Assembly (NCBI RefSeq): GCF_026914285.1
Contig: NZ_CP113864.1
Location: 719,501 to 783,500 of the forward strand
DNA length: 64,000 bases
From: Caldicellulosiruptor naganoensis
Lineage (GTDB): Bacteria > Bacillota > Thermoanaerobacteria > Caldicellulosiruptorales > Caldicellulosiruptoraceae
Reading direction: 5' to 3'
Positions 34,353-57,735 of the stretch are shown in pieces. The first letter of the stretch is position 1; the number at the start of each line of letters is the position of its first letter. The position numbers and the translations under genes were made by a program. The notes beneath the pieces are model-generated. The model was not told the origin of the DNA and did no database searches. It saw nothing but the letters and a program-made list of their open reading frames with translations.

Positions 34353-35714
34353 GTATGCAAATGAATTTTAAACTAAGAGAAAAAAGAGAGTAATATAAAA
34401 GAAGAAAAGAGCAAAATAAATAACGACACAAATGAAAAGTATCAAAAAAAATTTACGAGAATTTCTTGGTTTGGTGTGCCTTATAAATTTGATGTTTGCT
34501 AATTATTACCAAATAGCAGAGAAACTGAATAGATGGCTCAGGGATTATCGATTGCCATGATTAACCTAAATAAAGTATTCTTAAGTACTTGAGATTATCT
34601 ACCTAATATCGATGCATAATGATGCTGACATATATTTAGCAAACAACAACTTCATTATATTAAACTTTCTGATATTTCCAATTTCAACGATGACAATGAC
34701 AAGGACATTTTTAATACGAGGGCAGTAACTAAAGGTTGGTACTAAAGCCCTTAAGCTGTTTTTTTATATTTTGCATGACTTTTTTTTTGGGTTGTAAGTC
34801 TATGAAGTGAATGTTTTTAAGTATTATAGAGAAAATTATGTTTTTCGCTTTTTCAAAGTTAGGATATGCCTGATGACTCTGTTAGTAGCTGTTTTTGAAA
34901 TCTTAACAATTTATGCTAGTTCAGAAAGTCTGTTGTTACTATTTTTGTCGGTAAAGGTTTGTTGAATTGTTAAGAAGTAACGGAAGCAATATCTGTGAGA
35001 GTAAAACTTTTGGCTATACTTAAAAGAAGATTTATGTTACTAAAAAAGACACTCCTTATGGTAAGTTTAAGAAATTTAATGGAATAAGATTTAGGGCTTT
35101 GTTTTTAGTTGGCTAAGATATGGAAAGTGAGAATGTATATAAAGAGGTCTTTATGGTACGGCATATCTTAAATCTGACAGAGAAATTGGTGCTGGTTGGT
35201 TGGACTTGACATATTCAGTAATAACAATTTGTGTTGGTGTAATCTGTTTTAGAGAGAGGCTGGAAATTTCATAAAATTTTGCGGAAATTAATGATATTTT
35301 AAATAAGAGAGTGTTTCTCTTTGATGTAACTGCAAACCTTTAAACTGTATCGAGATTTAAAAGGAGACAATAGCTCTTTAAGTAATTTGCTGGTTAGAAA
35401 TTAGAAAATATGGAGTTGATTACAAATATACTGAAGAGTGGCAATGAGAGAAAGACAGTGTGAAATAAACTGGGAATGATAACGTAGAGACATGGTTTTA
35501 GACGATAAGGCCCTGCCGCAATATAGTATAAAAGTGAAATTACTGATTTCTGGTTAAATTAAAAAAGTAACAAAGAATTAGGCAGCATTTAAGGATATGT
35601 GAAGGAGAGTGAAAAAGCATATAATTTCTTAAATACAATATACTTTTGCAAAGATTTTTCCCAAAACGCTTGATAATATCTGAGTAAAGAAATACTTTTA
35701 AAAAAATTGTAGTG
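34353..35714. other. long decayed or non-coding region
   Basis: About 1.36 kb with dense stop codons in all frames. Short in-frame stretches suggest an old gene, but none matches a family I know. No RNA fold or terminal repeat was recognised. Confidence 0.5.
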
Positions 35715-35723
35715 TGGTATAAT
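35715..35723 (+). promoter_or_regulatory. possible extended -10 element before the decarboxylase gene
   Basis: TGGTATAAT, an extended -10, lies about 50 bp before the start. The -35 region is poor. Confidence 0.4.
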
Positions 35724-35774
35724 TATCATTCAGAAAATTAAAAAATATAAAGGATGGAGGCAGGGCAGAATAAG

Positions 35775-37235
35775 GTGACAAAGGAGGACCAGAGCAAAAC
35801 ACCCCTTTTTGATGCTGTAAAAAGACACATTTAGAAAAACATCATCCCATTTCATGTGCCAGGTCACAAGTATGGCAGAGGATTGAAGGAGTTTACCGAT
35901 TTTGTTGGACAGAACGTCATGTTAATGGACCTAAATGGCATGGAAGATTTGGACAATCCAAACAATCCGATTGGAGTTATCTACGAGGCAGAAAAGCTTT
36001 TTGCAAGTGCATTTGGTGCTCAATATGCCTACTTCTTAGTAAACGGTACAACAGCTGGTGTGCAGACAATGATAATGTCAGCTTGTGAGCCTGGTGATGA
36101 GATTATCTTGCCCCGAAATGCGCACAAGAGCGCGTTTGGTGGAATAATCCTAAGCGGGGCAATTCCTGTATATGTACAGCCAGAGGTAAATGAAAAGCTT
36201 GGTATTACAATGGGTGTGACAGTAGAGAACGTCAAAAAGGCTATTTTGAAGCATCCTCATGCAAAGGCTGTGTTTGTTATTAATCCAACATACTATGGTA
36301 TAGCAAGTGATTTAAAGTCTATAACTCGAACTGCACACAAATTTGGTATGGCAGTTCTGGTTGATGAAGCGCATGGTGCTCATATGGGCTTTCACAATGA
36401 TTTTCCACTGACCGCCATGGAAGTTGGCGCTGATATGAGCGCTGTGTCAACACACAAGACGGGTGGGTCACTTACTCAAAGCTCAGTACTTCTTTTGCGA
36501 GGTCACAGGATTCAACCTGAGACAGTAAGGCAAATTTTGAACCTTACAATGACAACGAGCTCATCCTATATCTTGATGTGTTCAATTGACGTTGCACGAA
36601 AACAGCTTGCTATGTATGGTGAAGAGATGTTAGAAGAGACTTTGAGACTTGCCAGGATGGCAAGAGAGGAAATAAACAAGATTGAAGGACTTTATGCATT
36701 TGGCAAAGAGCTTATTGGAACACCTGGTGTTTATGACTTTGATGAGACAAAGCTTGGAATCAATGTCAGAAGGCTTGGAATTACTGGTTATGAAGCTGAA
36801 AGAATTTTAAGAGAGGAGTACAATATACAGATAGAGATGTCTGACCTTTACAATATTTTGGCAGTAATTACTTTAGGTGATACACAAGAGAGTGTGGAAA
36901 AGCTAATTGAAGCGCTGCGTGATATGGCAAAGAAACTTGGTGTAAAAGATGTAAAGACTCCAACAATAGTGCTTCACTCACCACAGGTTATTGTTTCGCC
37001 ACGTGATGCCTTTTATAGTTCAAAGAAGGTTGTTGAGCTTGACAATGCAGTTGGTGAGATTTCGGGCGAAATGGTGATGGCATATCCGCCGGGAATACCA
37101 CTAATTTTGCCTGGGGAGAGAATAACAAAAGACCTTGTAGATTACATTAAACTTCTGAAAGAGGAGGACTGTCAGCTTCAGGGCACTGCTGACCCATATG
37201 TCAATACAATTAGAGTTTTAGGTACTGCTGATTGA
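35775..37235 (+). pseudogene. Orn/Lys/Arg decarboxylase with in-frame TAG near the 5' end
   Basis: A fold-type I PLP decarboxylase (arginine/lysine/ornithine, SpeA/YaaO-like). From GTG 35775 the frame reads QSKTPLFDAVKRHI, then TAG at 35832-35834, then KNIIPFHVPGHKYGRG. That is the normal family N-terminus interrupted by one stop at codon 20. An in-frame ATG at 35754 gives the same reading. Downstream the 459-codon frame is intact, with DEAHGAH and the PLP lysine in STHKTGGS (Lys228 counted from 35775). Restart at the GTG at 35856 (HVPGHK) would lose about 27 residues and has no ribosome site. It is either a recent nonsense mutation or a sequencing error. Confidence 0.8.
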
Positions 37236-37253
37236 GAAAAGTCTAGTGAGTAA

Positions 37254-37685
37254 GTGACTTTTAGAATTCATTCAAGAGAGAGTGTTGATGAATTGCTTAG
37301 TCCTTTAGTATATGCTTATATCGGCGATGCAGTGTATGAGTTATATGTAAGAAATAAAGTGATATCCGAGAATCCTGATTTGACTCCTTATCTTTACTAC
37401 TTGAAAACTACTATGTATGTTCGGGCTTCAAGTCAAGCAGTAGCTATAAAAAAATTGTATGAAAAGCTTGACGAAAATGAAAAAAGGATTGTAAAGAGAG
37501 GCAGGAATGCGAAGACTAAAACCATTTCCAAGAATGCTAAGTTGAGTGATTATAAATATGCTACAGCACTTGAAACATTAATTGGTTATTTGTATTTAGA
37601 AAACAATATTGAAAGATTGGAGTATATTCTTTCTCAAGTGTATGAAATAATAACTCAAGAGTACCAAACGAGTAAAAACAACTAA
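37254..37685 (+). CDS. mrnC: Mini-ribonuclease III
   Basis: A 143-residue RNase III catalytic domain without the double-stranded RNA-binding domain. In Bacillus it matures 23S rRNA ends. Marks are LVYAYIGDAVYELYVR with the catalytic Asp, KRGRNAKTKT and YKYATALETLIGYLYL. It starts with GTG, 18 bp after the decarboxylase frame; the ribosome site is weak. In other Firmicutes mrnC usually sits near cysS and rlmB, so its neighbour here differs although rlmB is 4.4 kb away. Confidence 0.9.
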   Translation: MTFRIHSRESVDELLSPLVYAYIGDAVYELYVRNKVISENPDLTPYLYYLKTTMYVRASSQAVAIKKLYEKLDENEKRIVKRGRNAKTKTISKNAKLSDYKYATALETLIGYLYLENNIERLEYILSQVYEIITQEYQTSKNN

Positions 37686-37718
37686 TTTTAGTATTAATCT
37701 TGAAAGGATTGATAAAAA

Positions 37719-38744
37719 ATGATTAGTGGGTTAATAGTACTACTTTTGATTATTTTATTTTTGCCTTTTTTTGTTAAGGCAGTTGAACATAATTTAGAGT
37801 ATTTTTTGTTCATAATGGGCATTATAGGTGTTATTATTTCAAAGCAAATGAGCTTAGATTTATTTGAACATATTCTTAAAAATCATTTGCTTTATTATAT
37901 AACTTTTGCTGTTTTGATAGCAGGGATGTTGTTTTTCTTCTTTAGAAATAGAATAAACACAATGATAGAATTACTAACTCATAGAATTTCAATCCAGCTT
38001 TTTGTGTTTGTTATAATTGTTATTTTGGGATTAAGTTCAAGTTTTATTACTGCCATAATTGCGTCACTGTTATTAACCGAAATAATGCATCACATGCCAC
38101 TTGACAGAAACACCAAGGTAAAGGTTATTGTATTGGCGTGCTTTGCAATTGGATTTGGAGCGGCATTGACACCAGTTGGTGAACCGTTAGCAACAATTAC
38201 TATTTCAAAGCTTAAAGCAGACTTTTTCTATTTAGCAAGAGCAATTGGGTTAGAAATTTTTATCACAATACTGTTAATGGCTTTTTTAGCAGCTCTTGTT
38301 GTTAAAAAGGCAAGTAAAACAGATAAAGATGAATTTACAGAAAGTGCAGAGAGCATTAAAGATGTGTTTTTAAGGGCTTTTAAGGTTTTTGTGTTCGTAT
38401 TTGCACTTGAACTGTTAGGGACTGCTTTTAAACCCTTGATAGATTTGTACATCATAAAGTTAGATGCCAAAATTCTTTACTGGGTAAACATGATTTCTGC
38501 AATAGTGGATAATGCTACCCTGGCAGCTGCAGAGATTTCAAGAGAAATGACAGATGAACAGGTCCGAGCAATTGTTCTTGGAATGATTATAAGTGGAGGA
38601 ATGCTAATTCCCGGAAATATACCAAATATAATCTCTGCAGGAAAGTTCAAAATTAAAAGTAAAGAGTGGGCAAGGATTGGAGTTCCGATAGGTTTGATTT
38701 TGATGGCTGTATATTTTGTTTTGGTGTTTATAATTAAACTGTAA
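37719..38744 (+). CDS. DUF1646 family membrane protein (putative ion transporter)
   Basis: A 341-residue membrane protein with about ten hydrophobic segments. The motif GFGAALTPVGEPLATI in the middle and GGMLIPGNIPNII near the end are typical of the DUF1646 family, which resembles ion antiporters. No substrate is known. It lies 33 bp after mrnC and may be co-transcribed. Confidence 0.8.
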   Translation: MISGLIVLLLIILFLPFFVKAVEHNLEYFLFIMGIIGVIISKQMSLDLFEHILKNHLLYYITFAVLIAGMLFFFFRNRINTMIELLTHRISIQLFVFVIIVILGLSSSFITAIIASLLLTEIMHHMPLDRNTKVKVIVLACFAIGFGAALTPVGEPLATITISKLKADFFYLARAIGLEIFITILLMAFLAALVVKKASKTDKDEFTESAESIKDVFLRAFKVFVFVFALELLGTAFKPLIDLYIIKLDAKILYWVNMISAIVDNATLAAAEISREMTDEQVRAIVLGMIISGGMLIPGNIPNIISAGKFKIKSKEWARIGVPIGLILMAVYFVLVFIIKL

Positions 38745-38780
38745 AAAATTTCAAAAACTTATGAAGGGAAGATGTAGTTA

Positions 38781-39203
38781 ATGTACGATGTTACCAGCAT
38801 ATTGCAGATTTTACCACACAGGTACCCATTTTTGCTTGTTGACAGAATAATTGAGATAGAAGAGGGAAAAAAGGCAAAAGGAATAAAGAATGTAACAATA
38901 AATGAACCTTTTTTCCAAGGGCATTTCCCGGGCAATCCTGTAATGCCAGGTGTTTTAATTGTTGAGGCAATGGCACAGGTTGGAGCTGTTGCCATGCTCT
39001 CAAAAGAAGAATTTAAAGGAAAGACTCCGTTTTTTGCGGGTATTGATAAAGTAAGGTTTAAAAAGGTTGTAAGACCGGGAGATGTGCTTTTGATTGAAAC
39101 AGAGCTTATATCTCTCAAAGGCTCAATTGGCAAGGCGAAAGCTGTTGCTTATGTTGAAGGTGAAGTTGTTTGCGAGGGAGAGCTACTTTTTGCAATTAAG
39201 TAG
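38781..39203 (+). CDS. fabZ: 3-hydroxyacyl-[acyl-carrier-protein] dehydratase FabZ
   Basis: A 140-residue hotdog-fold dehydratase of fatty acid synthesis. The catalytic His48 ([11 protein letters not shown]) and Glu62 (VEAMAQ) have the 14-residue spacing of Fab[14 protein letters not shown] is the standard N-terminus. It is placed apart from a fatty-acid cluster here. Its stop overlaps the convergent dnaI-like gene by 8 bp. Confidence 0.95.
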
Positions 39204-40233
39204 CTCTCCTTTCTAACTGAGTTTTAGCCTTTATAACCCTGATATCTTCACCAAACAGATGCAAAAACATGAAATACTCATGAAGCCTTCCCATTGTTTT
39301 GTCTGAGTAGAGCTTTAGCAAACCATCGATGTTATAGTTTGTTGTAATGATCATCTTCTTGTTTGTCATATAACGCTTGTCCAAAAGACTTTGAAATACA
39401 CCATAACAAAACTCTGCACTTTTTCCCTCATTTCCAAGGTCGTCAATAATCAAAAGGTCCACTTCTTCAAGGCTTTTATACTCTTCATCGTCTACTTCAT
39501 CGTATAGCCTTACCATTTTAGAGTACTTTTCTTTTAGAATCTCAAAGAATGAGATGCTGTCAAGAAATATTACCGTTTTTTTTCTGTCAATAATCTCTTT
39601 GGCAATACAGTGGGCTAAAAAGGTCTTGCCAAGCCCAGTACTACCGTAAAAAAGTAGTCCTTTTTGAGAAGGTTTGTCAAAGTTTTTGATAAATTTTTTT
39701 ACTTCTTTTATAATGTTTAACATATTTTCATAAGGAGATATACCTTCCTGTGGGTCTATCTCTTTTGAATAATATTCTAAGTTAAAATTTTTAAAGTTAT
39801 GCTCTTTTAGAATATCTTTTAACTTGCTCTGTTCATACAAAAGTTCTATGAAGAGCTGTGTTCTACATTTGCAAACCTCAATTCCGTTTTCACTTACAAT
39901 AAAACCAGTGTCTTGGCATGCTTGGCATGTGTACTCAGGTTCTAAATAATTACTTCCAAGTCCAAGATCAATCAAAAGTTTTGTCCGCTTCTGAAGTAAG
40001 CTATCAAGTATCTTTGAGTACTTTTCTATCTCAGCTTGGTTTTGAGAAAGAGAAGCTTGTGAAAGTTTTAAACCTGCTTTTGTTATCTTTTCATTTAATA
40101 TATCAAAATCTTTTGACTTGGAAGAAAGCTGAGCAATCTTTCTTTCTCTTGCAATTTCTGCATTTTGACGACGTTGCTGATATATCCTGTTTATCATCTC
40201 AATTATCTTCTTTTTATTCGTCATCATCGTCAT
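39196..40233 (-). CDS. DnaI/DnaC-like helicase loader ATPase
   Basis: A 345-residue AAA+ ATPase like the Bacillus helicase loader DnaI. The N-terminal half has a coiled segment and a zinc-binding group CQACQDTGF...CKC. The ATPase half has Walker [10 protein letters not shown], Walker [11 protein letters not shown] and a sensor-I ITTNYN. It loads the replicative helicase at the origin or at restart sites. Its start overlaps the end of the dnaD-like gene by 20 bp, so the two are co-translated. It is longer than IstB-type proteins and lacks a nearby IS21 partner. Confidence 0.9.
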
Positions 40234-41239
40234 CTCTATTACCTCTCAATGCCTTTTTATAAAGTTCTTCAAGAGCTGTATATGTAGACGGATCTCTTTC
40301 TTCATATAAAACTTTCTTAGAACTTGACTGTTTTTTGTTTTTCTCTCTCTTTTGTGCATTTTCAAGCTCAAACTTTTTGATTGCCTCTAAACTTCTTAGT
40401 CCTGCCTCATACCATCGCTTTATTATACCATTTACATAATTTACAGTGGGATTATTAACATTTTTTACCAGACTCAAAGCGTATATTATGACTTCTTCAG
40501 GCATCTTCCAATCATTTATCCAAACGTTCATAATCTCATCTTCGACCTTAGTCGGAGCTCTGTGATATATTCCAAGGTTCTGAAGTACAAGTCTCTTTAT
40601 TCTACTTGTGTCCTCTTGTGACCTTATGTACTCCTCAGCCTTTTCAATGCTATCTATATTCAGCTCTTTCCATTTAATTGCCATTTGTTCAAGGTATTTA
40701 AGATTCTTATTATTCTTAGTGATTGTTACATAGTTTATGAGAAGATATATTACCTCAATAGGAAGCTTTAACCAATCATAAATTTCAAGAAGCACGTCTA
40801 TATCATTTTTATTGAAAGTCCTGCAGTATTGCTTTTGAGCAAATTCAAGAAGTCCCCTGAATTTTTCGTCTGTTTCATAAAACCTTGATAAGTCTTCAGT
40901 TGTGTAGACAGGGGGTGTAGGTGCATTTTCAGGCTTTTCAAACTCAAGCTTTTCGTCCAAAAAATCAATTGTTATATTTCCATCTGCATCTTTTGTAAGC
41001 TTTATCAGTCTTCTTTCTGACCAAAATTCAAGTGCTTTGATTACATCACTCTCAAGAAGGTTTAGGTCATGTGCTATCTTGTTTATCTCAATAAATTCCA
41101 CTTTATTTTGAAGCAAGAACTTTAGGTATATGTATACCTTCACGAACTCCCCGTCAGAAAAAGGCATGTGGTTTTTGATAAAGTCATAAGTGATTACAAC
41201 AAAGTTTTGGACCTTTTGTTGAATAAAGACCTTTAGCAT
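40214..41239 (-). CDS. DnaD-domain primosome protein
   Basis: A 341-residue protein with an N-terminal winged-helix part (about residues 1-100) and one or two C-terminal DnaD domains with the NPTVNYVNGIIKRWYEAGLRS motif. Proteins of this family work with the helicase loader in primosome assembly. I chose the ATG at 41239 over 41281, because AAGGGGG lies upstream of it and the protein then starts MLKVFIQQ. The 5' region carries a 29-bp palindrome shared with the divergent thyX gene. Confidence 0.88.
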   Translation of the reverse strand: MLKVFIQQKVQNFVVITYDFIKNHMPFSDGEFVKVYIYLKFLLQNKVEFIEINKIAHDLNLLESDVIKALEFWSERRLIKLTKDADGNITIDFLDEKLEFEKPENAPTPPVYTTEDLSRFYETDEKFRGLLEFAQKQYCRTFNKNDIDVLLEIYDWLKLPIEVIYLLINYVTITKNNKNLKYLEQMAIKWKELNIDSIEKAEEYIRSQEDTSRIKRLVLQNLGIYHRAPTKVEDEIMNVWINDWKMPEEVIIYALSLVKNVNNPTVNYVNGIIKRWYEAGLRSLEAIKKFELENAQKREKNKKQSSSKKVLYEERDPSTYTALEELYKKALRGNRDDDDDE

Positions 41240-41256
41240 ATATAAAAATGCCCCCT

Positions 41257-41285
41257 TTTTGTGATAAAATAATTTTATCACAAAA
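41257..41285. promoter_or_regulatory. 29-bp perfect palindrome between dnaD-like and thyX genes (candidate operator)
   Basis: TTTTGTGATAAAAT, a single central A and the exact reverse complement. It lies 17 bp before the dnaD-like start codon and 54 bp before thyX, in the only space where both divergent promoters can be. Confidence 0.7.
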
Positions 41286-41338
41286 TCATCTTTGTTTTTA
41301 TACCAATAAAAGTCAATAGAAGAAGATGGAGGATAAAA

Positions 41339-42127
41339 ATGAGCTTTAAGGTTGTTCTTTTATCGCATACACCCGACCCTGAAAAGGTTGTAGCAACAGC
41401 TGCAAAGCTTTGTTATTCAAATACATCAGTTGAGAATATTTATGATAAGCTCGATAGCGAAGCAGTTAAAAACTTTTTAAATCTCTTGATTGATGTTGGC
41501 CATGAATCTCCGCTTGAGCATGTGAGTTTTACATTTGGGATTGAGGGTGTTAGCAGGAGCTTTACACACCAGCTTGTCAGACACAGGATTGCTTCATATT
41601 CTCAGCAGTCTCAAAGGTATGTGAGGCTTGATGGGTTTGACTATGTAATCCCGCCAAGTATAGAAGAAGACCAAGAGCTTAAAAATATATTCATAGACAC
41701 AATGAATGAGATTGCAAAAAGTTATAGAGTTTTGACAGAAAAGTTGCAGGAAAAACACAAAAAAGTTCTTATTAGCAAGGGTTTGAGTGAAAAAGAGGCT
41801 TTGAAGAAGGCCGAGAAGATGGCAATAGAAGATGCAAGGTATGTTCTTCCGAATGCGTGTGAGACGAAGATAATCATGACAATGAACGCAAGAGAGCTTT
41901 TGCATTTTTTTGAACAGCGGTGTTGCAACAGAGCACAGTGGGAAATAAGAAGCGTTGCCGATAAGATTTTGGAGATAGTAAAAGGTATTGCGCCAAATTT
42001 GTTCAAATTTGCAGGTCCCAAATGTATAAAGCTTGGCTATTGCCCAGAAGGCAAGTTTTCTTGTGGGGAGTATGATAAGGTCAGACAAAAATACCTTGGA
42101 AAGAGGGAAAAAGATGAGGACAATTGA
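41339..42127 (+). CDS. thyX: flavin-dependent thymidylate synthase
   Basis: A 262-residue ThyX, which makes dTMP from dUMP with FAD, NADPH and methylenetetrahydrofolate. The signature RHR-x7-S is present as Arg81-His82-Arg83 to Ser91, with [11 protein letters not shown] after it. [22 protein letters not shown] is the dUMP-binding part. GGAGG lies near the ATG. The end overlaps rlmB by 14 bp. It is next to replication genes on the other strand. Confidence 0.95.
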
Positions 42128-42875
42128 GGGAAAAAATCCAGTAAAAGAGGCACTAAATAGCAGCACTCAAATAACAGAAGTATATATATCAAACACTGCA
42201 AAGGACAAGAGCATCTCTGAGATTATAAACCTTTGCAAACAAAAAGGCATTGTTGTGAAGTTAGTTGACAAGAACAAGATAGAAAAGATGGCGAAGACAA
42301 AAAATCCACAGGGAGTAATTGCAATTGCTCAGGAGTATAAGTACTGGGATATAGATGACCTTTTGCTTGAAGCATCAAATAAAGGCGAAAAGCCTTTTTT
42401 AGTGTTATTAGACGAGGTTACCGATCCACACAATTTTGGTTCAATTATAAGGTCTGCCCATTTATGTGGTGCCCATGGTATTATTATTGAGGCAAGGAAT
42501 TCATGCCCGATCACCCCTACTGTTGAAAAAGCTTCAGCTGGTGCAATTGAACACATTAAGGTAGCAAGAGTTGTTAACTTAAGAAGAACAATAGATGAGC
42601 TTAAGCGAAAGGGTATTTGGGTGTACGCAGCAGACAACAATGCCACAAAGCTTTTGTATGATTGTGATTTTAAGATTCCAACATGTATTGTGATTGGCTC
42701 TGAAGGTAAAGGAATTTCAAGGCTTGTAAAAGAGGGGGCTGATTTTTTAGTGAAAATTCCCCAAAAAGGCAAGGTCAACTCTTACAATGCTTCTGTTGCG
42801 GCTGGGATTATCTTCTTTGAGGTTTTAAAACAAAGAATTCAAGAAGGAGAAGGAAAAGGTGCACTTGATGGTTGA
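42114..42875 (+). CDS. rlmB: 23S rRNA (guanosine-2'-O)-methyltransferase, TrmH/RlmB family
   Basis: A 253-residue SPOUT methyltransferase with an N-terminal L30e-like substrate-binding domain (about 1-75) and the knotted catalytic domain. [32 protein letters not shown] and [13 protein letters not shown] are the three SPOUT motifs. I chose the ATG at 42114 because it starts [14 protein letters not shown], as in relatives; longer frames run back into thyX. The order rlmB-rae1-sigH is conserved in Firmicutes. Confidence 0.95.
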
Positions 42876-43353
42876 CGGCTACAATTTCATAAATGCTTGG
42901 AGCAAGTTAAAAGAAATTGCTAAGGATGATTTAGAAGTTGCGCGAAAGAAACTTATAGATATTTTGGCTGACTTTTCAGGGTATAGAGGGTGTAGGATAA
43001 CAGTTGTTTTTGACTCACATTTAGTAAAAGGTGCTCAGCGGAAAAAAGAAGTTATAAATAACATAGAAGTGAGACGGCTGATAACTACATAGAAAAAGTA
43101 TGTCTATGAAAATGCAAAGTATGAATCAATTGCAGTTGTGACATCTAATTACTTAGAGCAGCTTATGATTTTAGGGGACGGGGCTATTAGAATGCCTCCA
43201 AGAGAGCTTATATATGAGATTGAGAATTATAAAAAAGAGCTTGAGAGAAAGGTTAATGAAGAGGTAAGGAGAAAAGACAGACTTGAAGATACGCTTGATA
43301 GTAGCATCCTTGAAAAGTTAGAGAAATTCAAAAAAAGATTAGACCAAGCTTGA
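42859..43353 (+). pseudogene. rae1: broken Rae1/YacP-type NYN endoribonuclease gene
   Basis: Rae1 cleaves mRNA inside the ribosomal A site in Bacillus. The frame starts normally ([21 protein letters not shown]) but stops at TAG 43090-43092. Codons 43071-43097 in the +1 frame encode ETADNYIEK, the family's conserved acidic motif, and from 43099 the first frame resumes as YVYENAKYESIAVVTS...LEQLMILGDGA. This fits a deletion of about 19 nt before 43071 plus one extra G at 43098. The GTG start overlaps rlmB by 17 bp. The gene cannot make a full enzyme. Confidence 0.82.
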
Positions 43354-43451
43354 TACACCTTTGGTGATAATATATAGTTATGATGTGGGAAGAAATCTTG
43401 TATGGTGAACATTTGACAAAAAAGGCTTAAAAATTAAGGAGGCATTTTGCC

Positions 43452-44086
43452 TTGACATCACAAAAACAACTTTTAAATTTCAAATAGTTGTACAGATGAA
43501 GAACTTGTAAAGTATTCGCGCGAGGGTATCAAAGAGGCTACAGAAGTGCTCTTAAATAGGTATCAAAACCTTGTAAAGGCAAAGTGTAGAATGTACTTTT
43601 TGATTGGTGCTGAAAAGGATGACATTTACCAGGAAGGTATGATAGGCCTTTTTAAAGCTGTGCGCGATTTTGATGAGAGCAAATACCCCACTTTTAAACT
43701 GTTTGCTGAGCTTTGTATTACAAGACAGGTGATAACCGCAATAAAGACTGCAAGCAGGCAAAAACATATACCTCTTAACACGTACATATCACTGAATAAA
43801 CCCGTTTATGAAGAGAATGACGAGAGGACTTTGCTTGACACAATTGCTAACTCTTTTATCTCTGATCCTGAAGAAGTTATGATTACAAAGGAGGAGTTTG
43901 AAAACGCATTAAATATCATCACAGGTTGTTTAAGGCCATTTGAGTACAAGGTTTTAAATCTATACCTTGAAGGAAGGAGTTATCAAGAGATTGCAGAAAT
44001 GATTCACAAGGATGTGAAATCAATTGACAATGCACTGCAACGTGTAAAGAAGAAGGATTGAGAAGTACTTAAATAGTTCTGAGTAA
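43452..44086 (+). pseudogene. sigH: RNA polymerase sigma-H factor with frameshift
   Basis: A sigma-70 family factor of the SigH (Spo0H) type, expected about 210 residues. AAGGAGG and TTG 43452 start MTSQKQLLNF, then TAG at 43485. Removing one A from the AAA at 43482-43484 restores NSCTDEELVKYSREG and the rest (FLIGAEKDDIYQEGMIGLFKAVRDFD, region 2; SYQEIAEMIHKDVKSIDNALQRVKKK, region 4). From GTG 43546 a shorter 171-residue frame exists without region 1.2. At the 3' end TGA at 44059 follows KKKD; dropping one G gives KKKIEKYLNSSE, a more usual end. The frameshifts may be real or sequencing errors. Confidence 0.82.
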
Positions 44087-44126
44087 GAGATGTGAACTTT
44101 TAAAAGACAGAAAATAGAGTTTTAGG

Positions 44127-44180
44127 AAGATGGCTGCAGCGAAGTTGGGAGATAGGCTTGCGCAGGCCATCTTTTTTGTT
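44127..44180 (+). terminator. terminator after sigH (copy 1 of 3)
   Basis: AAGATGGC (44127-44134) pairs with GCCATCTT (44166-44173), with further imperfect pairing inside, then a T-run. Identical copies lie at 46557-46610 and 48783-48836 within the other repeat copies. Confidence 0.8.
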
Positions 44181-44182
44181 TG

Positions 44183-44210
44183 TTGTAAAAATTTTAAACT
44201 ATATTATAAT
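44183..44210 (+). promoter_or_regulatory. promoter inside repeat copy 1 (original pgm promoter)
   Basis: TTGTAA, 16-bp spacer, TATAAT. The same promoter at 48839-48866 serves pgm; this copy now faces IS left-end DNA. Confidence 0.6.
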
Positions 44211-44229
44211 ATACTTGTCCAATTTTTTT

Positions 44230-44442
44230 CTTGACTTTGTCAGTTAAGAGGTGTTTTTGAGCTAACAAAAAATAACAAAGTCTTAATTTATGCGGGTTTC
44301 AAGAAGAGAAAAATAAAAAATTTTAAAAAATGTAGGGACAAATTTTAGCTTAATATATACTGAATTTGCTTGACTTTTTAAATATTTTGTGGTACAATAT
44401 AACAAACTATCTTCAAGGAGTTGCCATATGTTTGTCAAAATT
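44230..44442. repeat. orphan 213-bp copy of the IS left end
   Basis: Identical to the first 213 bp of both IS copies, including the transposase promoter and its first five codons, then cut by the next IS left end. With 43995-44229 it forms the left arm of the 448-bp duplication 43995-44442 / 46425-46872. Confidence 0.93.
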
Positions 44443-44582
44443 CTTGACTTTGTCAGTTAAGAGGTGTTTTTGAGCTAACAAAAAATAACAAAGTCTTAAT
44501 TTATGCGGGTTTCAAGAAGAGAAAAATAAAAAATTTTAAAAAATGTAGGGACAAATTTTAGCTTAATATATACTGAATTTGC

Positions 44583-44611
44583 TTGACTTTTTAAATATTT
44601 TGTGGTACAAT
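44583..44611 (+). promoter_or_regulatory. transposase promoter in IS copy 1
   Basis: TTGACT, a 17-bp spacer and TACAAT, 30 bp before the transposase ATG. The same element occurs in the orphan left end and in IS copy 2. Confidence 0.65.
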
Positions 44612-44640
44612 ATAACAAACTATCTTCAAGGAGTTGCCAT

Positions 44641-46344
44641 ATGTTTGTCAAAATTACTAATGCTGGCGGTTATCAGTATGTTAGGTTAGTCGAAAATTAC
44701 CGTGAAAATGGTAAAGTAAAGCAAAGAGTACTATTTAACTTTGGTAGACTTGATATTCTCAAAGATGACCCCGCTTTTAAAAACATTGTAAAAAAACTAT
44801 CTGATATTGTCGCTGAAACAACTACTGAGAATGCAAAAGCTGTTACTATTGAATCTGAAGAAGATATTTCGGATGCAGTTGTAAAAAACTGGGGATACAT
44901 TGTATACAGAAAGTTATGGCAGGAGCTTGAAATTGATAAGTTTTTAAAAGGGAAAGCAGCAAAAGAGAGAAAGATAAAATTTGATGTAGACAAAGTAAGT
45001 TTTTTAATGACCATACAGAGATTGATAGAGCCAATGAGCAAACTAAGAACTTATCATCAGAGAAGCAAATATTTTGGATTTGAAGAGGATATAGATTTGA
45101 ATCAATTGTACAGGTGTTTAGATTTTCTTGACAGTGTAAAAGAAGATTTAGAGACATACCTGTATCAGAGAAATAAAGACTTATTTAAGATGGTAGTTGA
45201 TGTAGTGTTTTATGATGTGACGACAATATACTTTGAGAGTTGTAGAGCGGATGAACTTAAAAATTTTGGGTTTAGCAAAGACAACAAGGTAAATGAAGTG
45301 CAAGTTGTATTAGGGCTTTTGGTGGACAAAGAAGGCAGACCGATAGGGTATGAACTTTTTCCTGGTAATACGATAGATAGCAAGACGATGGTAAAGATAC
45401 TGAGGAAGCTGAAGGAAAAATTTAGTATAGATAAGATAATAATAGTAGCAGACAAAGGGCTTAACAGCAGAATAAATTTAAAGATGATAAAAGAAGCTGG
45501 GTACGACTATATAGTAGCAAGCAGATTAAAGAATGCAAGTAAAGAAATTTTAGATGAAGTTTTTAATGAAGAAGGATATAAAAGACTTGATGGCAAAAGA
45601 TGTTTGAATGCTGAAGAAATTTATGGTGATGAATTCAAATATAAGGTATTGGAAAGAACAAATATTGTCAAGGATGAAGAGGGTAAAGAGTTCAAAATAG
45701 AAGAGAATTTGATAATAACGTATTCAAGCAAGAGAGCCAAGAAAGACAAAGAAGACAGAGAGAGATTGGTAAGAAAAGCCAAAGAGCTTTTAGAGAACAA
45801 AGGAAGCATAACAGCCTTAGAAAAGAAAGGTGCAAGGAAATATTTGAAGAAGAAATCAAAATCAGAAGAATATGTATTGGATGAGGAAGCGATAAAACGA
45901 GATGAGAAATTTGACGGTTATTATGCAATTCAAACGAGCAAAAAGGATATGGATGTAGAAGAGGTTTTAGGAGCATATCACGATTTATGGAAGATAGAAC
46001 AGTCATTCAGAGTAATGAAAAGCTGTTTAGAAGTGCGACCGATATATCACTTTACAGAAAGCAGAATAAAAGGACATTTTGTGATATGTTTTTTGGCATT
46101 TTTACTGCAAAGGACATTGGAATATATTTTGAGGAGAAAAGGTAAAGGAATAAGTAGTGAAAGGATAATGGAAGCAATATATTCAATGAACTTTTTTGAA
46201 ATAGAGATAAAAGGGAAGAAATATTTGATAAAGCAAAAAATTGAGGGAGAAGCTGGAGATATACTGAATGTAATGAAGATAAAGGGTCCAAAAAACTTCA
46301 TGACATATGAGGAAGGCTTAGAATTTATTGGTATTAGCAAATGA
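44641..46344 (+). CDS. IS1634-family transposase, copy 1
   Basis: A 567-residue DDE transposase of the IS4 superfamily, IS1634 group. The catalytic triad is visible as Asp192 (VFYDVTTIYFES), Asp271 (IVADKGLNS) and Glu453 (LWKIEQSFRVMK) with the Y-x-W/IE-x2-FR context. I chose ATG 44641 because AAGGAG lies 7 bp upstream and a promoter sits before it; a GTG at 44602 lies within the -10 region. The gene is intact, and the copy at 46858 has a single amino-acid difference (Ala here, Thr there, in the EE-A/T-IKRDEKF stretch). Confidence 0.93.
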   Translation: MFVKITNAGGYQYVRLVENYRENGKVKQRVLFNFGRLDILKDDPAFKNIVKKLSDIVAETTTENAKAVTIESEEDISDAVVKNWGYIVYRKLWQELEIDKFLKGKAAKERKIKFDVDKVSFLMTIQRLIEPMSKLRTYHQRSKYFGFEEDIDLNQLYRCLDFLDSVKEDLETYLYQRNKDLFKMVVDVVFYDVTTIYFESCRADELKNFGFSKDNKVNEVQVVLGLLVDKEGRPIGYELFPGNTIDSKTMVKILRKLKEKFSIDKIIIVADKGLNSRINLKMIKEAGYDYIVASRLKNASKEILDEVFNEEGYKRLDGKRCLNAEEIYGDEFKYKVLERTNIVKDEEGKEFKIEENLIITYSSKRAKKDKEDRERLVRKAKELLENKGSITALEKKGARKYLKKKSKSEEYVLDEEAIKRDEKFDGYYAIQTSKKDMDVEEVLGAYHDLWKIEQSFRVMKSCLEVRPIYHFTESRIKGHFVICFLAFLLQRTLEYILRRKGKGISSERIMEAIYSMNFFEIEIKGKKYLIKQKIEGEAGDILNVMKIKGPKNFMTYEEGLEFIGISK

Positions 46345-46424
46345 TGTAGTGACAAAATTGAGGTCCATATTTTGTCAATCCCAGTCCTCCCAAGCTTTTT
46401 GAGCTTCAAACTGACAAAGTCAAG

Positions 46425-46659
46425 AGAAATGATTCACAAGGATGTGAAATCAATTGACAATGCACTGCAACGTGTAAAGAAGAAGGATTGAGAAGTACTT
46501 AAATAGTTCTGAGTAAGAGATGTGAACTTTTAAAAGACAGAAAATAGAGTTTTAGGAAGATGGCTGCAGCGAAGTTGGGAGATAGGCTTGCGCAGGCCAT
46601 CTTTTTTGTTTGTTGTAAAAATTTTAAACTATATTATAATATACTTGTCCAATTTTTTT
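46425..46659. repeat. long direct repeat X, copy 2 (235 bp)
   Basis: Same sequence as 43995-44229. Together with the adjoining first 213 bp of IS copy 2 it is the right arm of the 448-bp duplication. It carries the last part of sigH, the terminator and the pgm-type promoter. Confidence 0.93.
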
Positions 46660-48641
46660 CTTGACTTTGTCAGTTAAGAGGTGTTTTTGAGCTAACAAAA
46701 AATAACAAAGTCTTAATTTATGCGGGTTTCAAGAAGAGAAAAATAAAAAATTTTAAAAAATGTAGGGACAAATTTTAGCTTAATATATACTGAATTTGCT
46801 TGACTTTTTAAATATTTTGTGGTACAATATAACAAACTATCTTCAAGGAGTTGCCATATGTTTGTCAAAATTACTAATGCTGGCGGTTATCAGTATGTTA
46901 GGTTAGTCGAAAATTACCGTGAAAATGGTAAAGTAAAGCAAAGAGTACTATTTAACTTTGGTAGACTTGATATTCTCAAAGATGACCCCGCTTTTAAAAA
47001 CATTGTAAAAAAACTATCTGATATTGTCGCTGAAACAACTACTGAGAATGCAAAAGCTGTTACTATTGAATCTGAAGAAGATATTTCGGATGCAGTTGTA
47101 AAAAACTGGGGATACATTGTATACAGAAAGTTATGGCAGGAGCTTGAAATTGATAAGTTTTTAAAAGGGAAAGCAGCAAAAGAGAGAAAGATAAAATTTG
47201 ATGTAGACAAAGTAAGTTTTTTAATGACCATACAGAGATTGATAGAGCCAATGAGCAAACTAAGAACTTATCATCAGAGAAGCAAATATTTTGGATTTGA
47301 AGAGGATATAGATTTGAATCAATTGTACAGGTGTTTAGATTTTCTTGACAGTGTAAAAGAAGATTTAGAGACATACCTGTATCAGAGAAATAAAGACTTA
47401 TTTAAGATGGTAGTTGATGTAGTGTTTTATGATGTGACGACAATATACTTTGAGAGTTGTAGAGCGGATGAACTTAAAAATTTTGGGTTTAGCAAAGACA
47501 ACAAGGTAAATGAAGTGCAAGTTGTATTAGGGCTTTTGGTGGACAAAGAAGGCAGACCGATAGGGTATGAACTTTTTCCTGGTAATACGATAGATAGCAA
47601 GACGATGGTAAAGATACTGAGGAAGCTGAAGGAAAAATTTAGTATAGATAAGATAATAATAGTAGCAGACAAAGGGCTTAACAGCAGAATAAATTTAAAG
47701 ATGATAAAAGAAGCTGGGTACGACTATATAGTAGCAAGCAGATTAAAGAATGCAAGTAAAGAAATTTTAGATGAAGTTTTTAATGAAGAAGGATATAAAA
47801 GACTTGATGGCAAAAGATGTTTGAATGCTGAAGAAATTTATGGTGATGAATTCAAATATAAGGTATTGGAAAGAACAAATATTGTCAAGGATGAAGAGGG
47901 TAAAGAGTTCAAAATAGAAGAGAATTTGATAATAACGTATTCAAGCAAGAGAGCCAAGAAAGACAAAGAAGACAGAGAGAGATTGGTAAGAAAAGCCAAA
48001 GAGCTTTTAGAGAACAAAGGAAGCATAACAGCCTTAGAAAAGAAAGGTGCAAGGAAATATTTGAAGAAGAAATCAAAATCAGAAGAATATGTATTGGATG
48101 AGGAAACGATAAAACGAGATGAGAAATTTGACGGTTATTATGCAATTCAAACGAGCAAAAAGGATATGGATGTAGAAGAGGTTTTAGGAGCATATCACGA
48201 TTTATGGAAGATAGAACAGTCATTCAGAGTAATGAAAAGCTGTTTAGAAGTGCGACCGATATATCACTTTACAGAAAGCAGAATAAAAGGACATTTTGTG
48301 ATATGTTTTTTGGCATTTTTACTGCAAAGGACATTGGAATATATTTTGAGGAGAAAAGGTAAAGGAATAAGTAGTGAAAGGATAATGGAAGCAATATATT
48401 CAATGAACTTTTTTGAAATAGAGATAAAAGGGAAGAAATATTTGATAAAGCAAAAAATTGAGGGAGAAGCTGGAGATATACTGAATGTAATGAAGATAAA
48501 GGGTCCAAAAAACTTCATGACATATGAGGAAGGCTTAGAATTTATTGGTATTAGCAAATGATGTAGTGACAAAATTGAGGTCCATATTTTGTCAATCCCA
48601 GTCCTCCCAAGCTTTTTGAGCTTCAAACTGACAAAGTCAAG
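46660..48641 (+). mobile_element. IS1634-family insertion sequence, copy 2 (inserted first)
   Basis: Also exactly 1982 bp with the same 16-bp terminal repeats. Its original flanks are the 244-bp repeats 43986-44229 and 48642-48885; copy 1 later inserted 213 bp into its left end and duplicated that end. It is complete and looks active. Confidence 0.93.
46858..48561 (+). CDS. IS1634-family transposase, copy 2
   Basis: A 567-residue DDE transposase identical to copy 1 except for one Ala-to-Thr change caused by a GCG/ACG difference at about 48106. The same triad (Asp192, Asp271, Glu453), promoter and AAGGAG site are present. Near-identity of the two copies means the second transposition was recent. 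Both are transcribed toward pgm, and their transcripts would meet the terminator in the repeats downstream. Confidence 0.93.
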   Translation: MFVKITNAGGYQYVRLVENYRENGKVKQRVLFNFGRLDILKDDPAFKNIVKKLSDIVAETTTENAKAVTIESEEDISDAVVKNWGYIVYRKLWQELEIDKFLKGKAAKERKIKFDVDKVSFLMTIQRLIEPMSKLRTYHQRSKYFGFEEDIDLNQLYRCLDFLDSVKEDLETYLYQRNKDLFKMVVDVVFYDVTTIYFESCRADELKNFGFSKDNKVNEVQVVLGLLVDKEGRPIGYELFPGNTIDSKTMVKILRKLKEKFSIDKIIIVADKGLNSRINLKMIKEAGYDYIVASRLKNASKEILDEVFNEEGYKRLDGKRCLNAEEIYGDEFKYKVLERTNIVKDEEGKEFKIEENLIITYSSKRAKKDKEDRERLVRKAKELLENKGSITALEKKGARKYLKKKSKSEEYVLDEETIKRDEKFDGYYAIQTSKKDMDVEEVLGAYHDLWKIEQSFRVMKSCLEVRPIYHFTESRIKGHFVICFLAFLLQRTLEYILRRKGKGISSERIMEAIYSMNFFEIEIKGKKYLIKQKIEGEAGDILNVMKIKGPKNFMTYEEGLEFIGISK

Positions 48642-48885
48642 AGAGATTGCAGAAATGATTCACAAGGATGTGAAATCAATTGACAATGCACTGCAACGTG
48701 TAAAGAAGAAGGATTGAGAAGTACTTAAATAGTTCTGAGTAAGAGATGTGAACTTTTAAAAGACAGAAAATAGAGTTTTAGGAAGATGGCTGCAGCGAAG
48801 TTGGGAGATAGGCTTGCGCAGGCCATCTTTTTTGTTTGTTGTAAAAATTTTAAACTATATTATAATATACTTGTCCAATTTTTTT
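48642..48885. repeat. long direct repeat X, copy 3 (244 bp)
   Basis: Full copy of the target duplication of the first insertion. It continues without break into the pgm leader, so it is the true native junction on the right. Confidence 0.93.
48839..48866 (+). promoter_or_regulatory. promoter for pgm inside repeat copy 3
   Basis: TTGTAA at 48839-48844, 16-bp spacer and TATAAT at 48861-48866, 40 bp before the pgm start codon. It is kept intact because the duplication covers it. Confidence 0.65.
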
Positions 48886-48906
48886 TAAAAAGGAGGCCTA
48901 ATAAAG

Positions 48907-50310
48907 ATGAAAAAAATAACCTTTGGAACAGATGGTTGGCGTGGGGTTATTGCAGACGACTTTACATTTGACAACGTAAAAATTGTTGCTCAGGCTATTT
49001 CAGATTATGTCCTGGAAACTTACGAAAGTCCGAAAATAATCGTTGGTTATGACTATAGATTCCATTCAGAAAACTTTGCAAAGATTTGTGCTGAGATTTT
49101 AAGCTCAAATGGTATTCAAGTGCTATTTTCGCAAAATCCAATTCCTACCCCGGCTGTTGCACATGCAGTTGTGAAAAAAGGAGCAAGCGGTGCAATTATG
49201 ATAACAGCAAGCCACAATCCATATTATTACAATGGAATAAAGTTCATACCTCATTATGGTGGTCCAGCAAATACGCAAATTACTGACAAGATAATAAAAA
49301 ATGTTGAGAGAATCCAAAAAGAAGGGCTAAAAGATATAAATCCTGACAAAGATCTCATTGAGTATTTTGACTACAAAGAAGAGTATTTGAACGACATATT
49401 GAATCTGATAGACAAAAAAGCGTTTGAGGGCAAACAACTAAAGGTACTTGTAAATCCTATGTATGGTTGTGGGATAGGGTATATTGACGAGGCTCTAAGA
49501 CGGCTTGGATGTGACGTAAAAGTAATAAACAACTGGCGTGACCCACTTTTTGGTGGTCATTTGCCAGAGCCAAATTTAGAGAATATGAAGGATTTGCTTG
49601 AGATTATAAAGACAGAGGAGTTTGATTTAGGGCTTGCAACAGATGGTGATGCTGACAGGTTTGGTGTTGTAAACCCTGATGGTCAGTTTATTTCAGCAAA
49701 TGAAGTGATATTTATGTTAACAGATTATTTAATTAACACAAGAGGCAAGGCTTCCTCTGTTGCAAGAACTGTCGCAACAACCTCTATGATTGACAAGATT
49801 GCTCAAAAACATGGTATGAGATGCATTGAAACACCAGTTGGGTTTAAGTACATTGCAGAGTGTCTTATGAAAGAGGATGCTTTAATTGGTGGTGAGGAAT
49901 CAGGTGGACTTTCTATAAAAGGGCATGTGCCGGAAAAGGATGGGATTTTGGCAGACCTTTTGGTTGCAGAGGCGGTTGCAAAGCTTGAAAAATCTCCAAG
50001 AGAGATTTTAGATAGAATTGAATCTGAGTATGGAAAGCTATATAGTAAAAGAATTGACGTTAGAACCACACATAGCAAAAAACAAGAGGCATTAGAGAGA
50101 ATAAAGAATTTTGGCAAAGACAACGTAGCTGGGCTGAGGTGCTTAGAGTACAGGACAAGAGATGGTCTTAAAGTTATTTTAGAGGATGAGGCATGGTTTT
50201 TGGTAAGGGCGTCTGGTACAGAGGATTTGATTAGAATATATGCGGAGAGCAAGGATGCAAAGACTCTTGAAAATATACTTTCTGAGGTAAAAGAATATCT
50301 GGGTTTGTAG
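48907..50310 (+). CDS. phosphoglucomutase/phosphomannomutase (alpha-D-phosphohexomutase)
   Basis: A 467-residue phosphohexomutase that interconverts hexose 1- and 6-phosphates, linking glycolysis to polysaccharide synthesis. The phospho-serine is Ser102 (TASHNPYYYNGIKF), the Mg2+ loop is DGDADRFG, the sugar-binding loop is GGEESGGLS and the phosphate-binding loop near the end is VRASGTEDLIR. AAGGAGG lies 10 bp before the ATG. Glucose and mannose forms cannot be told apart from these motifs; the DGWRG N-terminus and GEESGG fit the dual-substrate group. Confidence 0.93.
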   Translation: MKKITFGTDGWRGVIADDFTFDNVKIVAQAISDYVLETYESPKIIVGYDYRFHSENFAKICAEILSSNGIQVLFSQNPIPTPAVAHAVVKKGASGAIMITASHNPYYYNGIKFIPHYGGPANTQITDKIIKNVERIQKEGLKDINPDKDLIEYFDYKEEYLNDILNLIDKKAFEGKQLKVLVNPMYGCGIGYIDEALRRLGCDVKVINNWRDPLFGGHLPEPNLENMKDLLEIIKTEEFDLGLATDGDADRFGVVNPDGQFISANEVIFMLTDYLINTRGKASSVARTVATTSMIDKIAQKHGMRCIETPVGFKYIAECLMKEDALIGGEESGGLSIKGHVPEKDGILADLLVAEAVAKLEKSPREILDRIESEYGKLYSKRIDVRTTHSKKQEALERIKNFGKDNVAGLRCLEYRTRDGLKVILEDEAWFLVRASGTEDLIRIYAESKDAKTLENILSEVKEYLGL

Positions 50311-50416
50311 TTTTTTATACAGGATTGCTTATTGCTTAAGTGTAATAAAATTGAAGAATCTATGAATATGAATATTATAAATTTGCAAAAAGCACATTTG
50401 TGGAGGTAATTCGTAG

Positions 50417-51511
50417 ATGACCAAATTAAAGGTTGCAGTTTTGTTCGGTGGAGTTTCAACAGAACATGAAGTTTCGATAATCTCTGCAAAATCGGTTATG
50501 CAAAACCTTGACAAGGAAAAGTATGAGATAATACCAATTGGTATTACAAAAGAAGGGAAGTGGCTTTTGTACACAGGAAAGATAGAAGATTTAGACAGCA
50601 AATGGACAATGTATTCAATTGAATGTTTTATCTCACCAGACAGGACTAAAAAAGCGCTTGTGAAGATAAAAGATGGTGAAGCTACCTTTATTGACATTGA
50701 CGTTGTATTTCCTGTATTGCATGGATTAAATGGTGAGGATGGTACTGTACAAGGGCTTTTAGAGCTCTCGGGGATTCCGTATGTTGGATGTGGTGTGTTG
50801 TCATCAGCGCTCTGCATGGACAAAGCTTTTGCTAAAAAACTTGCTCTTTTAGAGGGGATTCCACAGGGCCATTTTTTAGTGATTTACAAAGATGAGTATC
50901 TTTCCAAAAAGGAATATTTCATCAGACGGATTGAAAGTGAGTTTTCGTATCCTGTATTTGTAAAGCCTGCAAATTCAGGTTCATCAGTTGGGATTTCAAA
51001 GGCAAAAGACAAAGACGAGCTGATTTTGGCAATCCATGAGGCATTTTTGTATGATACCAAGATTTTGATCGAAGAGGCTATAAATGCACGTGAGATTGAG
51101 TGTGCAGTGCTTGGCAATAGCGAAATTTTTGTGTCAGCCTTGGGAGAGATAGTGCCTTCGAGGGAGTTTTATTCGTATGAAGCAAAGTATATAGATGGCT
51201 CATCAGAATTAATCATTCCTGCAAAACTTGAAAAGCAGGTAGAGGATGAGATTAAGGAGCTTGCTATTAAGATTTACAAGCTTTTTGAGTGTAGTGGTAT
51301 GGCAAGAATAGACTTTTTTGTTGACAAAGAAACTAATAAGGTGTATTTCAATGAAGTAAATACAATCCCTGGCTTTACAAGTATTTCGATGTATCCAAAA
51401 CTGATGGAGTACAGCGGTATACCATATCCTCAGCTTCTTGACAGACTCATACAATTTGCAATTGAAAAGAACCAACAAAAACAAAGCATAAAATATAGCA
51501 AAGAGGGTTAA
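50417..51511 (+). CDS. ddl: D-alanine--D-alanine ligase
   Basis: A 364-residue ATP-grasp enzyme that joins two D-Ala for peptidoglycan precursors. Marks are [47 protein letters not shown] and [37 protein letters not shown] precedes the ATG. The glutamate racemase gene follows after 5 bp, so both D-amino-acid supply steps for the wall are co-expressed. Confidence 0.96.
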
Positions 51512-51516
51512 AGCCT

Positions 51517-52320
51517 ATGGATACAAGACCAATTGGGATATTTGACTCAGGCCTTGGCGGGCTTACAGTCTTCAAAGAGATTGTAAATCTTATGCCAAAT
51601 GAGAGCATAGTATATTTTGGTGATACGGCAAGGATCCCTTATGGATCTAAGTCCAAAGAGACAGTGACAAAGTTTGCCACTCAAAACACAAGGTTTTTGC
51701 TATCCAAAAATGTCAAGATTGTAGTTGTTGCTTGCAACACTGCGTCTGCCTATGCATACGAATATTTAAAAAGTCAGTTTGATGTTCCGATTGTTGCTGT
51801 CATTGAGCCTGGAGCAAAAGCTGCAGTCTTAGCAACAAAGAACAAGAAAGTTGGTGTAATTGGTACAGAAGGCACAATTGCAAGTGGTTCTTTTGAGAAA
51901 AAGATTTTAGAGTATGACCCAGAGATAGAGGTGTATTCAAAGCCCTGTCCTCTATTTGTGCCGCTTGTTGAGGAAGGGTGGGTCGATAAAGAAGTGACAT
52001 ATCTTGTTGCAAAGGAATATTTAGAAGAGTTCAGAGAAAAGGGAATAGATACCCTTGTTTTAGGGTGTACACACTATCCATTTTTACAAAATGTCATAAA
52101 GAAGATTTTACCAGAGGTAACTTTGATAAACCCTGCGCTTGAGACAGCAAAACAAACATATGAGGTTCTAAAACAAAACAATATGTTAAATAGCTCAGAG
52201 GAGGAGCCAACTTATTATTTTTATGCAAGTGACAATTTGAAAAAGTTCGAAGCAGTTGCTTCAATATTCTTAAATGAAAAGATAAAATGTGAAGAAAAGA
52301 TTGATATAGAAAAATACTAA
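51517..52320 (+). CDS. murI: glutamate racemase
   Basis: A 267-residue cofactor-free racemase that makes D-glutamate for peptidoglycan. The two catalytic cysteines are Cys73 (VACNTASA) and Cys184 (LGCTHYPF); the N-terminus IGIFDSGLGGLTV is standard. It lies between ddl and the ywiB-like gene on the same strand, a wall-precursor and translation cluster. Confidence 0.97.
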   Translation: MDTRPIGIFDSGLGGLTVFKEIVNLMPNESIVYFGDTARIPYGSKSKETVTKFATQNTRFLLSKNVKIVVVACNTASAYAYEYLKSQFDVPIVAVIEPGAKAAVLATKNKKVGVIGTEGTIASGSFEKKILEYDPEIEVYSKPCPLFVPLVEEGWVDKEVTYLVAKEYLEEFREKGIDTLVLGCTHYPFLQNVIKKILPEVTLINPALETAKQTYEVLKQNNMLNSSEEEPTYYFYASDNLKKFEAVASIFLNEKIKCEEKIDIEKY

Positions 52321-52344
52321 AACCAATGTTTTTGAGGTGAAAGT

Positions 52345-52782
52345 ATGAAAAAAGACGTTTTGATTTTTGTCAAGGGCACCCAAGAATACCCCATAAATAG
52401 CCTTGAGAATAGCATAGAGTTTTTCACAGAAGGCACGTTTTATAAAAAAGGTGAAAGCTTTTATGTGACATATAAAGAAAGCGAGCTTACTGGGCTTGAA
52501 GGTACAACTACTACATTTAAGATTCAGCCGAACCATATAACATTAATTCGCTATGGCGATGTTACGTCAACCCTTATTTTTGAGCCGGGCAAGAGGCATA
52601 TATCAACATATATCACTGAAGACGGTGTGATAATGATAGGAGTTTATACAAAGAAGATGAGGGTAGATTTGACCGAAAATGGTGGAGAGGTTTTTGTTGA
52701 ATATGCCATAGATTTAGATTCGCATATGATGTCTGAAAACGACTTTTTACTCAAAATAAAAGAGGCAGGTGTAAAAAATTGA
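52345..52782 (+). CDS. DUF1934 family beta-barrel protein (YwiB-like)
   Basis: A 145-residue protein of alternating beta strands, matching the DUF1934/YwiB family of calycin-like barrels. SFYVTYKESELTGLEGTTTTFKI is the best-preserved part. Its function is not known. Its TGA overlaps the argS start by 4 bp, and the ywiB-argS pair is also seen in Bacillus. Confidence 0.85.
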   Translation: MKKDVLIFVKGTQEYPINSLENSIEFFTEGTFYKKGESFYVTYKESELTGLEGTTTTFKIQPNHITLIRYGDVTSTLIFEPGKRHISTYITEDGVIMIGVYTKKMRVDLTENGGEVFVEYAIDLDSHMMSENDFLLKIKEAGVKN

Positions 52783-54467: not shown

Positions 54468-54478
54468 ATAAAGATGGG

Positions 54479-54518
54479 GCCTCTTAACTATTTTTGACAA
54501 ATGGTTAAGAGGCTTTTT
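54479..54518 (+). terminator. terminator after argS
   Basis: GCCTCTTAAC (54479-54488) pairs with GTTAAGAGGC (54504-54513), followed by TTTTTG. Confidence 0.92.
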
Positions 54519-54559
54519 GTTTACTTTGAATAAAATTTAGATTAAAAGTTTTTAATCTA

Positions 54560-54589
54560 TTGTTAGTCTTTGAAACAATATGATATAAT
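54560..54589 (+). promoter_or_regulatory. promoter for the CapK/PaaK-like gene
   Basis: TTGTTA at 54560-54565, an 18-bp spacer ending in TGA and TATAAT at 54584-54589 (extended -10). Confidence 0.6.
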
Positions 54590-54626
54590 TTGAGTAGTAA
54601 AAAGCACTTAAGTTGGGAGTTATACT

Positions 54627-56042: not shown

Positions 56043-56104
56043 TTTAATACAACTACTTATTAATGTTATATAACTCAACAATGTAGGAAGGGAGGATGGT
56101 TGGA

Positions 56105-57694: not shown

Positions 57695-57735
57695 TTTCAA
57701 AATTGAAAAGTGATTATTTACTTTAAAAAAGCATC

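Follow-up and report, generated by a model that had tools for sequence, protein, structure and literature searches.

A palindrome between dnaD and thyX

What is the function of a perfect palindrome located in the gap between two divergent genes, dnaD and thyX, of Caldicellulosiruptor naganoensis, and is it bound by a regulator or by RNA polymerase itself? We addressed this question in a 64,000-nucleotide stretch of the genome (hereafter, the window), in which the 29-bp palindrome occupies positions 41257-41285 and consists of two 14-nt arms (41257-41270 and 41272-41285) that are 100% complementary and separated by 1 nt (14-1-14), with the sequence TTTTGTGATAAAAT-A-ATTTTATCACAAAA. A repeat search returned exactly these arms, and the adjacent genes were identified by their Pfam matches and strands, so that both the perfect palindrome and the divergent dnaD-like/thyX pair described in an earlier reading of the letters (the sequence-only reading) were confirmed. 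When 30 copies of the window were generated with an order-2 Markov model, chance palindromes with arms of at least 12 nt (loops of 0-8 nt) occurred at 0.2 per 64 kb, and none with arms of at least 14 nt was found. The exact palindrome is present in 2 places in the 2.49-Mb genome, the second copy being the same dnaD-thyX locus within an inverted segmental duplication. The sole longer perfect palindrome in the window is located elsewhere, at 27257-27288 (16-0-16, TTTTAAACTGCTTCC ATGG-centred).

The dnaD-like replication initiation gene on the minus strand (40214..41239; Pfam DnaB_2, PF07261, 1.2e-28) begins with an ATG, upstream of which lies a GGGGG ribosome-site-like stretch, and is followed by a dnaC-like AAA+ gene (39196-40233; IstB/DnaA-type ATPase match). 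On the plus strand, thyX (41339..42127; Pfam Thy1, PF02511, 1.2e-76), which encodes a flavin-dependent thymidylate synthase, precedes an rlmB-like gene for an rRNA methyltransferase of the SpoU type (SpoU_methylase, 1e-41). The palindrome sits in the 99-bp gap between dnaD and thyX (41240-41338), a length that assumes the dnaD ATG start at 41239; the mechanically called GTG start at 41281 would fall within the palindrome. The dnaD gene adjoins thyX in the sister genus (genome G012), but this neighborhood was seen at 0 of 17 thyX loci from more distant genomes, and a literature search for thyX together with dnaD found nothing.

The arms as extended −10 elements

Each arm, TTTTGTGATAAAAT, carries the Gram-positive extended −10 element TRTGnTAnAAT and is laid out as a T-run, TGTG, A and TAAAAT, with the two arms pointing in opposite directions and 1 bp between them. 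The TGTG corresponds to TRTG at −17 to −14, part of the Gram-positive promoter consensus (PMC2613000), and is followed by a free base and then by TAAAAT, with T at −12, A at −11 and T at −7. Given its sequence and its conservation in the genus, we interpret the palindrome (41257..41285) as a pair of extended −10 promoter elements in opposite orientation, namely, TGTG-A-TAAAAT at 41260..41270 on the plus strand for thyX and the same element at 41272..41282 on the minus strand for dnaD. The −10 hexamers (41265-41270 on the plus strand and 41277-41272 on the minus strand) place the predicted divergent starts within about 25 bp of each other. With 7 nt from the −10 hexamer, the predicted starts are A41277 (plus) and A41265 (minus), 12 bp apart, and the predicted leaders are 62 nt for thyX and 26 nt for dnaD. 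Because the arms lie back to back, these starts fit short leaders to both genes, in agreement with the median leader of 50 bp reported for C. bescii (PMC8579813), for which 5′ RNA-seq data are public (GSE163475; PMC8579813).

A scan for the −35 consensus found none for either direction, the best hexamers matching at 3 of 6 positions, and the −10 hexamers of the arms, TAAAAT or, in relatives, TACAAT, deviate from the consensus by one base; both points weigh against the promoter reading. A weak −35 is shared with the Gram-positive TRTGn/−10 promoters, as are TRTG at −17 to −14, the single free base and the T-12, A-11 and T-7 of the hexamer (PMC2613000); unlike single promoters of this type, the locus contains two elements in mirror image with a 1-bp gap.

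With one mismatch allowed, the half-site gave 108 matches in the own genome versus 23 for the reversed control, and many of these are copies of an IS. The commonest variant, TTTTGTGGTACAAT, has dozens of genomic copies and is the −10 region of this resident IS, which reads TTGACT, 17 bp and TACAAT, followed by a ribosome site and an ATG, and bears the TTTTGTGG extension. This region is likely to be the promoter of the IS element. Tandem, nearly identical copies of the IS, with a 580-codon transposase frame, are located at 44228-48642 of the window; a search of plasmids for the IS gave no match.

Across 144 kb of the genome, the 150 bp upstream of called genes contained TRTGnTAnAAT in sense orientation 10 times, compared with 1.2 expected, and 0 times in reversed form; four of the 10 matches are the palindrome arms and their duplicates and the others include IS copies, so that independent matches contribute less to the enrichment than the counts suggest. 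As judged from these sequence matches, the half-site corresponds to the extended −10 promoter word that the genus itself uses. The sequence-only reading had matched the half-site to no well-known site, and here it reads as the extended −10 element TRTGnTAnAAT; the search of the genome and relatives for the half-site, which that reading had suggested, yielded many matches in this genome and no convincing regulon.

Conservation and symmetry decay

The palindrome is found at the dnaD-thyX locus in 12 of the 12 genomes of the genus examined, with 0-2 mismatches, and is absent, within 3 mismatches, from the 49 other genomes searched (one of the same family, the rest of the same class or phylum). 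In the alignment, it stands out against the diverged flank on the thyX side, that is, its conservation where the flanking DNA diverges, proposed earlier as a check, was observed.

An operator for a dimeric transcription factor would overlap both promoters and serve to repress or activate dnaD and thyX together; a 29-bp dyad has the usual operator size, and the symmetry, perfect here and extending over 12-14 of the 14 pairs across the genus, includes outer T-run bases that an extended −10 element can spare. The two readings can be discriminated by what evolution is expected to preserve, namely, the dyad in the case of an operator and the pair of −10 elements in the case of a double promoter, in which symmetry at degenerate positions is dispensable. 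The symmetry in the sister genus (G012) is down to 9 of 14 pairs, and both −10 elements are retained. Indeed, both TRTGnTAnAAT elements are intact in every member of the genus and in G012, each arm carrying TRTGn and a −10 hexamer with T-12, A-11 and T-7.

In most members of the genus, the third −10 base of the thyX arm is changed from A to C, and one genome (G003) additionally has G to A at the R of TRTG. In G012, one arm has G to A at the R, the other arm has A to T at the free base, and the outer bases differ, which together leave 9 symmetric pairs. All four within-element substitutions (the third −10 base, the R of TRTG twice and the free base n) thus fall at the 3 degenerate positions of the 11, with a chance probability of about 0.006, in a test that is small and was framed after the sequences had been seen, the loose positions being taken from the published consensus. 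Read from the sequences, this pattern points one way, favoring a promoter over an operator.

Search for a regulon

An operator would be further supported by additional sites, whether upstream of other genes under the same control or at the gene of the regulator itself, and none that is convincing was identified, in a search that single-target regulators would escape; no regulator gene was recognized among the immediate neighbors. At up to 3 mismatches, the 25-bp core was found only at the dnaD-thyX locus and at isolated places in single genomes, such as G006:928697 and G006:1019488; extra matches of the 25-mer in G005 and G009 were set aside, as they look like one protein-coding stretch common to both. 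At one mismatch, the inner core matched, apart from the dnaD-thyX locus and its duplicate, coding DNA of proC and a single position close to a transporter gene. In 11 of the 12 genus genomes, the dnaD-thyX locus is the only one with an opposed extended −10 pair separated by 1 bp, and G002 has two more matches. With gaps of 0-14, another opposed −10 pair, TGTGTTATAATACATTCTATCA, and a variant of it recurred, and this candidate was rejected: the pair is internal to a protein-coding gene that, by eye, resembles a peptidase gene, and its recurrence therefore reflects coding conservation rather than a promoter. A search for the exact core in other genomes (257 Gb) gave 5 matches, and viral contigs gave 1; in three of the matches (L079, L082 and L114) one arm lies just upstream of a ribosome site and an ATG. 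These matches were not counted as evidence because, by a rough estimate, an A+T-rich composition predicts a handful.

Boxes of the Fur/PerR family are 7-1-7 inverted repeats, and the palindrome resembles them in being an A+T-rich inverted repeat, in having a single central base and in its AATnATT core. The palindrome core most resembles the boxes of this family, and no palindrome-like site was found upstream of the four FUR-family matches of the genome. The core fits the PerR consensus at 10 of 14 bases only and, unlike Fur/PerR boxes, comes with no regulon.

Overall, we consider an operator, including a repressor site laid over the promoters, unlikely. The strong operator candidate of the sequence-only reading has to be revised, given that the half-site is an extended −10 word, no convincing regulon accompanies it and the dyad decays in the sister genus while the −10 elements persist. 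Of its idea of shared control, one part stands, in that the palindrome is very probably a regulatory DNA element common to both divergent genes, and the operator part is not supported: instead of one regulator tying helicase loading to dTMP supply, for which neither a convincing regulon nor a cognate regulator was found, the genes probably share a promoter.

A probable symmetric bidirectional promoter

In our assessment, the palindrome is, with good probability, the core of a conserved symmetric bidirectional sigma-A promoter for dnaD and thyX. This reading draws on the sequence, genus-wide conservation, intact elements in both directions, a near-identical word at another likely promoter and the lack of a convincing regulon. 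From it, we infer the start sites, activity in both directions and competition between them: RNA polymerase would bind in either orientation, melt the same A+T-rich centre and start thyX at about 41277 on the plus strand or dnaD at about 41265 on the minus strand. Because both complexes would occupy the same DNA, one binding event would exclude the other, so that a single entry site for polymerase would be common to the helicase-loading genes and thyX, which would compete for it. Tentatively, the double extended −10 might even constitute a regulator-free switch that makes transcription of dnaD-dnaC and of thyX mutually exclusive at each binding, with a fixed ratio, across the genus, a possibility to which we give some credence but by no means preference.

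Bacterial bidirectional promoters on symmetric −10 elements are known, with starts mostly 18 bp apart, spacings of 10 and 23 bp also being common and small variations possible (PMC10268837, PMC12825309), and their control is only starting to be studied in E. coli (PMC12825309). The locus resembles these promoters, described by the Grainger group (PMC10268837, PMC12825309), in that the predicted divergent starts are a few bp apart and the −10 elements themselves give rise to the symmetry; starts with ATP, a T at −18 of each strand and competing polymerase orientations are likewise predicted here. The two differ in that the hexamers at this locus lie back to back with 1 bp between them, whereas theirs overlap, and in that both arms have the full TRTG extension, both transcripts are predicted to be mRNAs and the arrangement is kept genus-wide. 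The predicted spacing of 12 bp differs too and is not among the common E. coli spacings (18, 10 and 23 bp); the true starts may differ from the prediction.

The perfect symmetry exceeds the need of the promoter model, given that two promoters require neither the outer TTT nor matching degenerate bases, which are identical in both arms; part of this excess is explained by the choice of the case for its perfection. If both directions are active, the locus would represent a case in which both products of a conserved bidirectional promoter are useful mRNAs with a link to DNA replication. More generally, a textbook-looking operator palindrome is explicable by promoter symmetry, and symmetry decay with both −10 elements kept provides a way to tell an operator from a promoter.

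Other readings of the intergenic region

Adjacent to the palindrome, at 41291..41304, is a stretch with a conserved TTTTTATACCA (TGGTATAAAAA on the minus strand), which is invariant in the genus inside the otherwise variable thyX leader and is lost in G012. It could possibly serve dnaD, either as a −35/UP-like region or as an additional promoter of the extended −10 type. Only if dnaD transcription starts upstream, at TGGTATAAA, could the palindrome fold as an RNA hairpin in the dnaD leader, just before the ribosome site. The minus-strand RNA is predicted to form a 13-bp stem (−15 kcal/mol, z −4.0), and the invariance of TGGTATAAAAA in the genus fits this possibility. However, good folding is expected of every perfect palindrome, none of the substitutions in one arm is matched by a compensating change in the other and the upstream TGGTATAAA is lost in G012, which makes a hairpin highly improbable. 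Similarly improbable is a pair of DnaA boxes that would make dnaD and thyX respond to the level of the replication initiator: TTTATCACA differs at one position from the DnaA box consensus, TTWTNCACA, and there is a functional link to replication, but the mismatch is present in both arms and one G012 arm becomes TTTATCATA, with the CACA gone.

The inverted duplication

The locus is part of a large inverted duplication that covers 35681-44228 and 48655-57697 of the window, with the other copy at about 1.857-1.874 Mb of the same genome (G000:C1). The copies are mosaic, being nearly identical over about 36.5-41.5 kb and only 80-89% identical over most of thyX, a yacP-like gene and a sigma-factor gene, as if gene conversion had homogenized one stretch. 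Compared with the thyX DNA of G009, the window copy is 95% identical and the other copy about 87%. In the window copy, within 42859-44100, the yacP-like (NYN-type) gene is frameshifted near 43068, where the duplicate has 19 more bases, and the sigma-factor frame has small indels; in the duplicate, both frames read through. Judging by these frames, it is the window copy that seems to be decaying.
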